This document shows, one piece after another, positions 90-9,394 of a stretch of DNA of 35,237 nt. The stretch comes from a bacterium. GTDB lineage: Bacteria; DYJV01; JALVYZ01. How positions within the stretch are numbered: the stretch's first letter is position 1; every line of letters starts with the position of its first letter. The stretch spans positions 1-35,237 of the forward strand of contig JALVYZ010000238.1 in assembly GCA_027037705.1 (NCBI GenBank). The letters run 5' to 3'. The translations under genes were made by a program, and so were the position numbers. Below the pieces are notes generated by a model. The model made no database searches. It was not told where the DNA came from and saw only the letters and a program-made list of their open reading frames with translations.

Positions 90-1145
90 TTAAAGGTCAT
101 AACCTCTTCTTTTAAATGCAAAAATTGCAACAATTCCCATAAGGAATGTAAGTATTATTGCTCCCCATTCACTTATAGTTGGCACAGGTTGAGCTGGCAT
201 TGGGCCTATTGCTACAGCACCTCCTCCCACTCCTGGGCCTCCCTGGTCACTAATAGCACCATTCTCACTTCCATCTTCGTCATATGGCCCTCCATCTGTT
301 AAATCAAAGGTAATTACTGTCTTGTTACCTTCAGTTGTTATTGAGGTAGCTATATTTTCCCATTCGCCTGTATTTATGTTTTTCTTCCAGTAACCATTAA
401 TAGCATCGTTTTGAGGGACATATATCTTCATATGGGCAGTGCCTCCATTTTGAAGACCACTTATATCAAACTTGAACATTCCATAAGGAAATGTTACATT
501 TGAAGGTGCATCTGAAGGAGGGTCTGTTGCCTGAACATTGGTTTGTGTTAGATTATCAGTATTAGAAATTGTAACATAAGCACTTCCAGCTCCCTGAAGA
601 GATGTTACATTGCTTTGTTCCCTATCAGGTGTGCCATCACCATTTCCATCTCCTGCGCCTGAACCTGTCAGATTGGGAACATTATCTTCTGTTTCAGGAG
701 ATACTCCATCTCCATCATCTACCCAAACAAGACCAAAAAGATAAGTTGTAATCCCAGTGTCTGGATCCTGATTGAGGATATAAGAATTTCCCGGATTATT
801 AAAAAAACCAGACATCCCATTACCAATAGTTGTAGGACTAATATTATCAAAACCATATGTATTTGTACTATCATTAAGGTCATTAATGATAGAAGGTCCT
901 TTATTTATAAGAGAGAGATTGTCTACTGAAATACCAAATACCAGGGCTTCAAGATATAAAGTATTTACAAGCATTTCCACTTCAGCTGAGTTATTATCAA
1001 TTCCATAATACCAGATTTGAAAATAGTTTTGTCCCCCTACACCCTGAACAGCATAGCATCTATCTTTCATTCCTCCAGATAAAATGACTATAAAAAATAC
1101 TACGATTCCCAGAAGAAAAGATAATAGAGAATGGTTTCTTTTCAT
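90..1145 (-). CDS. Secreted protein with choice-of-anchor U-like domain and C-terminal IPTL-CTERM-type sorting signal
   Basis: N-terminal hydrophobic signal (MKRNHSLLSFLLGIVVFFIVILSGG); DGDGVSPETED / DGNGDGTPDREQ and LTDGGPYDEDGSENGAISDQGGPG resemble choice-of-anchor U proteins; C-terminus VPTISEWGAIILTFLMGIVAIFAFKRR matches the IPTLxxWG-TM-basic tripartite signal. Strong SD (GGGAGGGG) upstream of the start. Confidence 0.85.
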   Translation of the reverse strand: MKRNHSLLSFLLGIVVFFIVILSGGMKDRCYAVQGVGGQNYFQIWYYGIDNNSAEVEMLVNTLYLEALVFGISVDNLSLINKGPSIINDLNDSTNTYGFDNISPTTIGNGMSGFFNNPGNSYILNQDPDTGITTYLFGLVWVDDGDGVSPETEDNVPNLTGSGAGDGNGDGTPDREQSNVTSLQGAGSAYVTISNTDNLTQTNVQATDPPSDAPSNVTFPYGMFKFDISGLQNGGTAHMKIYVPQNDAINGYWKKNINTGEWENIATSITTEGNKTVITFDLTDGGPYDEDGSENGAISDQGGPGVGGGAVAIGPMPAQPVPTISEWGAIILTFLMGIVAIFAFKRRGYDL

Positions 1146-4158: not shown

Positions 4159-4938
4159 TTAGAAACCTAATAAAATATAAAATATTGGAATAGCAAAGAA
4201 TAAACTATCTATTCTATCTAACATTCCGCCATGCCCTGGAAATATATTTCCTGAATCTTTTTTGTTATTATATCTTTTTAGAGCAGATTCAAACAAATCT
4301 CCTAAAATACAGGAAATAGAGAGAATAAAGGATATAAAAATTATTTTAAGAAATGGAAGTTTTAATACAAAAAAATTAAAAATCAAAGATACCAATAAAG
4401 AACCTATAATACCTCCAATTGCACCTTCTACTGTTTTATTTGGACTAATTTTAGGACATAACTTATTTTTACCAAATTTTGTGCCTGCAAAATAAGCAAA
4501 AGAATCTGTACTCCATGCTATCAGAAGTATAAACATTATTAAATTTTTTCCTTCTCCATTAGCAATAATTGGTATTGAAAAACATAAAAAGAAAGAAATA
4601 TACACATTTGAGATAATAAAGATTAAAATTTCATTAATATTTGAAAAAGACTTTTTAACAGAAAGAATAAATAAACAAAATGAAAAAATAAATAGTATTA
4701 TAAGGCAATAAATAACTAAATTAATTGACAAAGCAAAACTTATTACAAAGAAAATTGAAAAAAAAGAAGAATATAAAAAATATTTTAAATTGAAATTTTC
4801 AAATAAATTGAAAAATTCATAATGAGACATCAAAAGAACAGCAAAAAGCAATAAGTAGAAAAAATAGATAGGTAAAAAATAGATAATTAATATTAATAAA
4901 ATAATTCCTATTATTCCAGTTATTATCCTTTTTTGCAT
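4159..4938 (-). CDS. cdsA: Phosphatidate cytidylyltransferase
   Basis: Multi-TM protein with CdsA signature SPNKTVEGAIGG...GDLFESALKRYNNKKDSGNIFPGHGGMLDRIDSL. Confidence 0.95.
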   Translation of the reverse strand: MQKRIITGIIGIILLILIIYFLPIYFFYLLLFAVLLMSHYEFFNLFENFNLKYFLYSSFFSIFFVISFALSINLVIYCLIILFIFSFCLFILSVKKSFSNINEILIFIISNVYISFFLCFSIPIIANGEGKNLIMFILLIAWSTDSFAYFAGTKFGKNKLCPKISPNKTVEGAIGGIIGSLLVSLIFNFFVLKLPFLKIIFISFILSISCILGDLFESALKRYNNKKDSGNIFPGHGGMLDRIDSLFFAIPIFYILLGF

Positions 4939-5651
4939 TAATTATTAATCTGTTCTGAAATTTTACCAAATCTTCGTTCTCTTTTAGAAAAATCTTCCAA
5001 AGCTTTCTTAAATTCATTTTTATCAAAATCTGGCCAAAGAGTATCAGTAATATATAACTCTGTATATGCTATTTGCCACAAAAGAAAATTACTAATTCTA
5101 TATTCTCCACTTGTTCTTATTAATAAATCAGGATCTTTAATTCCTTTTGTATAAAGAAAGTTTGAAAAAAGCTGCTCATTTATTTTTTCTTCATCAATTT
5201 TTTCAGCAACAATACGTTTAACAGCTTGAAGAATATCAGCTCTTCCACCATAATTCAAAGCAATATTAAGCATTAAATCACTACAATTTGAGGTTATTTC
5301 CATTGAATTATTAAGTAAATTTTTAATGTCATCAGGAAATTTTGATAAATCTCCAATAAAATTTAACTTTATGTTATTTTTTTTTAATTCTTTAACTTCT
5401 TTTTTAATGTATTCTTTTAAAAGTGACATTAAAAATGATATTTCTTCTTTTGGCCTTTCCCAATTTTCTGTTGAAAATGCAAAAAGAGTTAATACTTTAA
5501 TCCCAAATTCTTTTGAAGCTTCAACTATTTCTTTAACTCTTTTCATTCCTTCTTTATGACCATAAAATCTGGGCTTATTCCTATTTTTAGCCCATCTTCC
5601 ATTGCCATCCATTATTATTGCTACATGTTCTGGTATATTTTTCATTGTCAT
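4938..5651 (-). CDS. uppS: Isoprenyl (undecaprenyl) diphosphate synthase; start may be the second ATG at 5645
   Basis: HVAIIMDGNGRWAK...RFYGHKEGMKRV...LTLFAFSTENWERP...DLLIRTSGEYRISNFLLWQIAYTELY. Confidence 0.96.
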   Translation of the reverse strand: MTMKNIPEHVAIIMDGNGRWAKNRNKPRFYGHKEGMKRVKEIVEASKEFGIKVLTLFAFSTENWERPKEEISFLMSLLKEYIKKEVKELKKNNIKLNFIGDLSKFPDDIKNLLNNSMEITSNCSDLMLNIALNYGGRADILQAVKRIVAEKIDEEKINEQLFSNFLYTKGIKDPDLLIRTSGEYRISNFLLWQIAYTELYITDTLWPDFDKNEFKKALEDFSKRERRFGKISEQINN

Positions 5652-5657
5652 GTGAAT

Positions 5658-5690
5658 AAAAAAAAGGTGCTTCCAAAAGGAAGCACCTTT
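5658..5690 (-). terminator. Rho-independent terminator downstream of the ferredoxin gene
   Basis: Perfect 12-bp stem AAAGGTGCTTCC (5663-5674) / GGAAGCACCTTT (5679-5690) with 4-nt loop; on the minus strand followed by a T-tract (complement of the A run 5658-5665). Confidence 0.85.
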
Positions 5691-5703
5691 CTAAATTTTT
5701 TAA

Positions 5704-5924: not shown

Positions 5925-6491
5925 TTAAATTTCCCTGATTTCTCTTTCTTTCTCTTCAAAAATCTTATCTATCTTCTCAATATATTCATCAGTTATTTCC
6001 TGAACTTTTTCTTGAGCCTTCTTTAACTCATCTTCTGTGATAACCTTATCTTTCTGCATAGATTTTAATTTATCATTCATATCTCTTCTAATATTTCTAA
6101 TTGCAATCTTTGCCTGTTCTATAATTTTTTTTGTCTGTTTTACAAGTTCATTTCTCCTCTCTTCTGTAAGAGGAGGGATATTCAATCTAATAACTTTTCC
6201 ATCATTAACAGGAGCTAATCCAATATCTGAATTAGCAATTGCTTTTTCGATTTCTTGAATAAATTTTGGTTCCCATGGTTGAATCATTATTGTTTTACTA
6301 TCAGGAATGGATAAAGAAGCAACCTGATTAATTGGAGTTAAAGTACCATAATAATTGATTTTTATCCCATCTAAGATAGCAAGAGAAGCTCTTCCTGTTC
6401 TAATCTTTCCAAGGTCTTTTTTCAAGGTTTCAATTGTCTTATCCATTCTTTTTTTATCTTCTTTTAAAACTTTATCTATTTCGGGATTCAT
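5925..6491 (-). CDS. frr: Ribosome recycling factor
   Basis: LGKIRTGRASLAILDGIKINYYGTLTPINQVASLSIPDSKTIMIQPWE...IRLNIPPLTEERRNELVKQTKK. Confidence 0.97.
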   Translation of the reverse strand: MNPEIDKVLKEDKKRMDKTIETLKKDLGKIRTGRASLAILDGIKINYYGTLTPINQVASLSIPDSKTIMIQPWEPKFIQEIEKAIANSDIGLAPVNDGKVIRLNIPPLTEERRNELVKQTKKIIEQAKIAIRNIRRDMNDKLKSMQKDKVITEDELKKAQEKVQEITDEYIEKIDKIFEEKEREIREI

Positions 6492-7217: not shown

Positions 7218-7820
7218 TTATTTTATTTCTTCACCTAAAACAAATCTAACAAATCTTCTAACAACAATATTTTCTCCTAATTTTGCTATTGCTTCATTAA
7301 TTAGATCTTGCACTGTTTTTTCATCATCTCTTATATATGGTTGTTCTAAAAGACAAACTTCTTTATAATATTTTTGAATTTTACCTTCAACTATTTTATC
7401 AACTATTTTTTCAGGTTTTCCACTTTCTAAAGCCTGAGCTTTATAAATTTCTTTCTCTCTTTGAAGAACATCTTCTGGGATATCTTCTCTTTTTACATAC
7501 AATGGATTTGCTGCAGCTATTTGCATTGCAATTTCATTAACTAAAGTCTTAAAGTCATCTGTTTTTGCAACAAAATCAGTTTCACAATTAACCTCTACTA
7601 AAACTCCTATCTTACCACCATGATGAATATATGATGCAATTAATCCATCTGATGCTGTTCTTGAAGCTTTTTTAGCAGCCTTTGCAATTCCTTTCTTTTT
7701 CAAAATATCAATTGCTTTTTCAATGTCACCATTTGCTTCTTGCAGTGCTTTTTTACAATCCATAAATCCTGCACCTGTCTTATCTCTTAACTCCTTAACA
7801 ACTTTTGCTGAAATTTCCAT
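7218..7820 (-). CDS. tsf: Elongation factor Ts
   Basis: [38 protein letters not shown]...[19 protein letters not shown]. Confidence 0.97.
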
Positions 7821-7843: not shown

Positions 7844-8647
7844 TTAGTTTGCAACTTCTGTTTGATCCATTTCAACTGAATCTTTTTGTTCTTCTTGAGT
7901 TTCTTCCATAAATTCAACATCAACATCTGCTTCTTTGTCAGAATCTGCTGCAACTGTTTCTTTATACATTTCCATTCCTTCAATACATGCATCAGCTATT
8001 TTTGAACAATATAGTTTAATAGCTCTAATAGCATCATCATTTCCTGGAATAGGATAATCAATTTCTTCTGGATTACAATTTGTATCAACAACTGCTACAA
8101 TAGGGATTTCTAACTTTCTGGCTTCTTGAACTGCAAGATGTTCTCTTTTAGTATCAATTATAAATAATGCTCCAGGTAGATCTTCCATTTCTTTTATTCC
8201 ACCAATTAATGCTTCTAATTTTTTCATCTTCTTTTCAAGTTTTAATGCTTCTTTTTTTGGTAATAAATCAAAAATACCTTCTTCTTTCATTTGTTCAAAC
8301 TTTTTCAATTTATCAATTGACTTTTTAATAGTCTGGAAATTTGTTAATGTTCCGCCAAGCCATCTTTTATTAACATAAAACATCCCACATCTTTGAGCTT
8401 CTTCTTTCACTGCTTCCTGAGCTTGCTTTTTAGTACCAACAAAAATTATTTTTTTTCCTTTTCCAGCAATTTCATCTCTTACAAAATCACAGGCTTGTTT
8501 GAAAAGTTTTACAGTTTGTTGAAGGTCAATGATATAGATTCCATTACGAGCTGTATAAATATACTTCTTCATTCTTGGGTCCCATCTTCTTGTCTGATGA
8601 CCAAAATGGACCCCTGCTTCTAACAGTTCTTTCATAGTTATAGACAT
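7844..8647 (-). CDS. rpsB: 30S ribosomal protein S2 with acidic C-terminal extension
   Basis: [41 protein letters not shown]...[17 protein letters not shown]...[20 protein letters not shown]. Confidence 0.97.
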
Positions 8648-8674
8648 AATTCTCCTCCTCTAAGGTTTTTTCCA

Positions 8675-8735
8675 CCGCTTCAAGCTTTCTTATACCTTAA
8701 TAATAAGGCACCTTCGAAAGCTATAAAAGAAGCGG
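8675..8735 (-). promoter_or_regulatory. Structured 5' leader of rpsB (candidate ribosomal-protein autoregulatory RNA)
   Basis: Three nested perfect stems: CCGCTTC 8675-8681 / GAAGCGG 8729-8735; AGCTTTC 8683-8689 / GAAAGCT 8716-8722; CCTTA 8695-8699 / TAAGG 8704-8708; located 27 nt or more upstream of the rpsB start with SD GGAGGAG between. Confidence 0.6.
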
Positions 8736-8770
8736 CTGAATTTAAAATTTTACCTGCCTTTAGCATAACA

Positions 8771-9394
8771 TTATCTATTTTGCAAGTGTTTTAAAATTTC
8801 TGAATGTTTATTAATTTTCGGACAATTATTGAAACTTTTTTTATATCCTATAAATGGTATTTTAGCTTCTTTGCTCGCAATATAATCTATTTCAGCATCA
8901 CCTACATATAAAGCCTCAAACGGTTTTAAATTATTTCTATTTAATAGATATAAGAGCATATCTGGAGCAGGTTTAGGATTTTTAATTATTGATACAGTTG
9001 CATAATCATCAATTACTTTATCTAAATTAAAATATTTAAATAAATGAGGGAAAGTTTTACTTCTATTTGTAGCTATTGCAATTTTAATCCCGTATGATTT
9101 TAATAAGTTACAAGTCTCAAAAAATTCAGGTTCCATTGTCATATATTTATAAAATTGTGAATAATCTACACTTTTTGAAAATTCAATAGCTTTTTTTGCA
9201 ATATCTTTATCTTCAAAAAGGTTTAATATAACATTATCATTTGAATATGTATGTATAATCAAAAGTTTTTCTTTATCATTTTCATTAACTGGTGGATATC
9301 CAAAATGTTTTAATATATAATTGTAATATTCAAGATTTGCTTTCTTGGAGTCAAATATAACTCCATCACAATCATATATTACCATTTTTACCAT
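8771..9394 (-). CDS. HAD-superfamily hydrolase (phosphoglycolate phosphatase-like)
   Basis: VIYDCDGVIFDS (motif I), IAIATNRS (motif II), KPAPDMLLY (motif III), YVGDAEIDYIASKEA (motif IV). Confidence 0.88.
   Translation of the reverse strand: MVKMVIYDCDGVIFDSKKANLEYYNYILKHFGYPPVNENDKEKLLIIHTYSNDNVILNLFEDKDIAKKAIEFSKSVDYSQFYKYMTMEPEFFETCNLLKSYGIKIAIATNRSKTFPHLFKYFNLDKVIDDYATVSIIKNPKPAPDMLLYLLNRNNLKPFEALYVGDAEIDYIASKEAKIPFIGYKKSFNNCPKINKHSEILKHLQNR

Follow-up and report, generated by a model that had tools for sequence, protein, structure and literature searches.

The leader of the rpsB-tsf operon described here most likely belongs, as a divergent member, to the known rpsB motif, through which that operon is autoregulated, and it is very probably an element responsive to ribosomal protein S2 (uS2). 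It is ordinary in kind and divergent in detail, and it comes from a poorly sampled phylum; this assignment places an rpsB control element in a bacterial phylum of which two draft genomes were available for comparison. The element lies on the minus strand of a 35,237-nt stretch of contig JALVYZ010000238.1 (the whole stretch is called the window), in the spacer separating a HAD-like hydrolase gene (8771-9394, confirmed by Pfam) from rpsB (ribosomal protein S2; 7844-8647 (-), start codon 8647-8645; PF00318, E = 2.7e-101) and tsf (elongation factor Ts; 7218-7820 (-); PF00889, E = 4.9e-45).

Structure of the rpsB leader

Three nested stems occupy positions 8675-8735 (-), 61 nt overall. The complementary segments reported by the first-pass annotation match the sequence exactly: CCGCUUC (8735-8729) with GAAGCGG (8681-8675) on the outside, AGCUUUC (8722-8716) with GAAAGCU (8689-8683) in the middle, and CCUUA (8708-8704) with UAAGG (8699-8695) innermost. 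That this is more order than chance would give a spacer also holds. The leader RNA (8661-8740 (-)) reaches -31.4 kcal/mol, whereas its shuffles average -16.2 (z = -5.4; none of 200 equally stable). None of 3000 dinucleotide-shuffled leaders contained the perfect 7/7/5 trio, which has no second instance in the window either. The minus strand folds more stably than the plus strand (-29.0 vs -20.9). The leader is present once in the genome, and a repeat element was accordingly rejected.

The earlier description had the stems right and was incomplete in three respects. Stem 1 is one pair longer, through a G.U pair (8736-8674); the sequence of stem 3 can be extended to GUGCCUUA/UAAGGUAU; and a third copy of CCUU (8665-8662) stands just 5' of the Shine-Dalgarno sequence, making a pseudoknot possible. 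This pseudoknot, overlooked in the first reading, is the most diagnostic feature of the element. With these additions, the outer stem P1 is formed by the arms GCCGCUUC (8729-8736 (-)) and GAAGCGGU (8674-8681 (-)), as found by both the fold and the model alignment, and is preceded directly by CA (8737-8738 (-)), as in the family leaders treated below, and followed by GGAAAAAACC. On its 3' side it carries GCGGUGGAAAAAACC, one base off the GCGGAGGAAAAAACC of other leaders. The middle stem, P1b, is equivalent to helix 2 of the family, and UGAA (8682-8679), 3' of its 3' arm, resembles the internal-loop strand of the family. The innermost stem belongs to a P3 hairpin, GCCUUA-UUAU-UAAGGU (8694-8709 (-)). 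The J2-3 strand AAGGU (8710-8714 (-)) overlaps a conserved GGUGCC and is complementary to ACCUU (8662-8666 (-)), directly 5' of the Shine-Dalgarno sequence GAGGAGGAG of rpsB (8652-8660 (-)).

A compensated stem in a related genome

The phylum sample consisted of the source genome and one relative, G001, both drafts. On the contig of the relative, DYJV01000027.1, which bears the label 'Candidatus Methylomirabilis sp.', the genes are ordered as in the window, and the matching position carries a P1 of CACUUACC...GGUAAGUG, then GAGGAUAAAACCAAGGAGG. MAFFT by itself misaligned the two leaders. Of the eight pairs in P1, six differ between the two genomes in both partners and two are identical, so that every pair is kept; when the leader of the relative was shuffled 20000 times, an 8-bp stem appeared at that position 250 times. 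A loop UGGUU in the relative is complementary to AACCA before the Shine-Dalgarno sequence, in the same place as AAGGU/ACCUU in the window. The leader of the relative is minimal, consisting of P1 and the knot without P1b or P3. Covarying substitutions in orthologous leaders, the test that the first-pass annotation had itself proposed, are thus found between the two genomes, and covariation is strong across other lineages (below). Its reading of the region as a structured rpsB leader is borne out by the fold together with the covariation in P1.

The rpsB motif across lineages

In the published rpsB motif, which is located in the 5' UTR of rpsB or tsf, variable P2 and P3 helices sit on a long P1, and J2-3 forms a pseudoknot of about five pairs with a 3' extension after P1 (Meyer et al. 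2009, BMC Genomics 10:268, PMC2704228); the motif had already been reported in several phyla at that time (PMC2704228). In rpsB leaders of unrelated genomes, CA, P1, an internal loop, GGUGCC, P3 and GCGGAGGAnAAAACC can be recognised by eye, and each of 34 family leaders chosen by hand has CA before P1. As MAFFT misregistered P1 in parts of the wider leader set, out-of-register rows were dropped before models were built. The first model (R1) was made from 16 of the hand-picked leaders, all of other lineages, with the window and G001 left out. In this alignment 90.3% of cells pair, compared with 62.6% in shuffles, and double-change cells number 75 compared with 26. The core of the pseudoknot, GGU:ACC, is almost invariant across leaders, with GGU at this place in nearly all family members, and the pair flanking it covaries, being Watson-Crick in 28 of 44 leaders where 13.3 would be expected (0 of 10000 shuffles).

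A second model (R2) was built from 33 leaders, with G001 included and the window excluded. Of 192 genomes, 60 contained a match to R2 with E <= 0.01, and these belong almost entirely to different families. The best match of R2 lay directly upstream of rpsB in all 25 matched genomes in which rpsB was located. The E. coli leader, known in Rfam as t44 (RF00127), was found by R1, which was built without it. The element is thus widespread, and t44, the sole Rfam model found for it, catches almost none of the tested leaders: of 20 loci (G001 and 19 other leaders), one reached the t44 threshold. A better model would therefore annotate many genomes. The gap in Rfam is one of models and not of description, the motif having been known from several phyla by 2009 (PMC2704228).

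Two further observations were made among these leaders. In one of them (L022, genome G044) the pseudoknot core is wholly replaced, CAAGCUU:AAGCUUG standing for GGU:ACC, a natural double compensation. In Treponema and other spirochaetes, the rpsB leaders (L038, L046, L054, L070, L079, L105) have another conserved element in common, CGAGAAAnAGAGUnnGG and then a hairpin upstream of GUGAAGGAG, which is possibly a second type of rpsB leader.

Probable placement of the window leader in the family

R1 recognised the leader of the relative with 26.8 bits (E = 1.7e-5). In the window, its best match was the leader at the correct position, with 11.9 bits (E = 0.11 over 35 kb), and R2 gave the window leader 12.9 bits (E = 0.064 over 35 kb, 2.4e-4 over the leader stretch alone). 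Over the whole genome, the window leader was the third-best match of R2 and not significant (E = 3.7), these scores coming from models built here and not from the published one. The model alignment took in only P1 and its 3' flank, leaving the second helix unaligned, and the pseudoknot cannot be used by such a model. The score by itself is no proof of membership, which, given the weak genome-wide value, leans on position, the relative and the pseudoknot.

In these respects the window leader agrees with the published motif. It stands directly 5' of rpsB-tsf, with which it would be transcribed; its paired P1 is long (8 bp, with 7 bp more in P1b); and the sequence provides a 5-bp J2-3 pseudoknot, AAGGU:ACCUU, with the 3' extension after P1. 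P2 is absent and P3 (GCCUUA/UAAGGU) is present and short, both of which the motif permits. GGUGC and the GGnGGA-AAAACC sequences are shared with the leaders aligned here. Beyond the model score, evidence for membership comes from the GGUGCC junction, the knot and the CA that precedes P1, as well as from the position and the relative. Unlike the usual form, the window leader has P1 interrupted by a 6-nt/1-nt interior loop that lacks the customary GGA strand, and GGUGGA stands in place of GGAGGA.

The missing internal-loop sequence, along with the low model score, the lack of an Rfam match and the extended nested helix, would fit an independent, lineage-specific leader binding S2 or something else and merely resembling the rpsB motif. 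We consider this unlikely. GCGGUGGAAAAAACC, GGUGCC, CA before P1 and the 5-bp pseudoknot all occur in the right order and spacing, and a descriptor of such features (CA, P1, AACC spacing and the knot flanks) was satisfied by 2 of 20000 shuffled leaders, a count that is only indicative as the descriptor was written after seeing the window. Moreover, the relative gives a significant model match at the same locus. The suggestion of the first-pass annotation that the element could be lineage-specific is not supported: the rpsB motif stands immediately 5' of rpsB in many unrelated genomes, and a model from other lineages finds the relative. That it recognised no named Rfam family is in keeping with the searches, in which no credible family was obtained for the window leader, either at the gathering threshold or at E <= 5, t44 included; the architecture itself, however, matches that of the published rpsB motif (PMC2704228), whose E. 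coli version is in Rfam as t44. The E. coli rpsB 5' UTR belongs to the same gene and has the same layout of P1, junction and pseudoknot, GGGGU:ACCCC there corresponding to AAGGU:ACCUU here. Leaders of the S15 gene (rpsO), compared here through the literature, likewise hold an autorepressive pseudoknot near the ribosome binding site, but concern another gene and another protein.

Proposed control of rpsB-tsf expression

In E. coli, S2 represses translation of rpsB-tsf through the leader, with S1 as a helper, and its mode of repression has been called unclear because the ribosome binding site lies outside the operator (review, PMC10931766). The gap between ACC of the knot and the Shine-Dalgarno sequence has a median of 4 nt in 33 leaders. 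The window has 3 nt here, and E. coli has 14 nt. The short distance in most leaders offers a testable answer to the question of how S2 represses, left unclear for E. coli (PMC10931766).

In the mechanism that we propose, the element would be transcribed within the rpsB 5' UTR and would fold into a P1/P1b stem bearing the small P3 hairpin, while the junction strand AAGGU would pair with ACCUU just 5' of the Shine-Dalgarno sequence to form the pseudoknot. S2 in excess of its sites on 16S rRNA would then bind and stabilise the knotted leader, a step in which S1 helps in E. coli. With the 3' strand of the knot abutting the Shine-Dalgarno sequence, the 30S subunit would be blocked, and output of rpsB and of the downstream tsf would drop. 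The simplest reading, and a likely one, is that S2 covers the Shine-Dalgarno sequence by stabilising the knot. What the analysis demonstrates is the structure, its covariation, its location and its resemblance to the family; S2 binding, repression and occlusion are inferred.

A more elaborate version, which seems rather unlikely, is offered by the 3' arm of P3, which could alternatively pair with ACCUUAG (8666-8660); P3 would therefore be excluded. In such a lineage-specific two-state switch, UUAAGGU would either close P3 or form 7 bp with ACCUUAG up to the first base of the Shine-Dalgarno sequence, S2 choosing between an open and a closed site; more generally, the knot strand that abuts the Shine-Dalgarno sequence in most leaders other than that of E. 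coli would let the family act by direct occlusion, of which E. coli shows no obvious sign.

Perhaps the element is a stable 5' hairpin that serves only to protect or insulate the rpsB mRNA and is not regulated by S2, as could be said of the minimal form kept by the relative (P1 and the knot). This is quite improbable: the conserved unpaired sequences and a pseudoknot covarying across lineages exceed the needs of a generic stabiliser, and the homologous E. coli leader confers repression by S2 (PMC10931766). A long stable hairpin within an intergenic spacer could also suggest an intrinsic terminator at the end of the HAD transcript, or an attenuator that controls read-through into rpsB. This is very improbable here and was rejected: after the stem come GGAAAAAACC and the Shine-Dalgarno sequence, a U-run is absent on both strands, and a terminator scan finds nothing at the leader. 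A leader peptide of 28 residues (MLKAGKILNSAASFIAFEGALLLRYKKA) beginning with the ATG at 8766, whose open frame spans the structure so that the stems would reflect coding, can practically be dismissed, since a convincing Shine-Dalgarno sequence is absent and the relative has no counterpart peptide.

Promoter-like element and transcript

Upstream of the stem, TTGCAAAA-N9-TTATGCTA (8761-8785 (-)) forms a putative -35 and extended -10 element, and the same layout is seen in the relative, where TTGCAAAA-N9-TTATG(C/G)TA describes both genomes at a similar distance from the stem. The pattern matches twice in this genome, three times in the relative and never in the reversed control. Conserved in both genomes and absent from the control, it makes a promoter just 5' of the leader element likely, and the element would therefore lie within the transcript, with a start predicted at about 8750 (-) from the promoter-like element.

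A wider form of the pattern, TTGCAAAA-N(8-10)-TTNTGNTA (L176, L178, L179), lies upstream of rpsB in both genomes; in this genome it also precedes a NapC/NrfH-like multihaem cytochrome gene, and in the relative an acylphosphatase-like gene. Possibly, these sequences represent an extended -10 promoter of the lineage.

Other features of the window

Between frr (5925-6491) and uppS (4938-5651), both named from their open reading frames, lies a strong terminator-like hairpin of 14 pairs followed by a T-run (5661-5692 (-)), which ends about 10 nt before the listed uppS start. This hairpin may mark the end of the rpsB-tsf-pyrH-frr operon, or it may act as an attenuator for uppS-cdsA-dxr-rseP. At 90-1145 (-), the sequence predicts a secreted protein with an IPTL-CTERM-like sorting signal at its end (IPTISEWGAIILTF...FKRRG).
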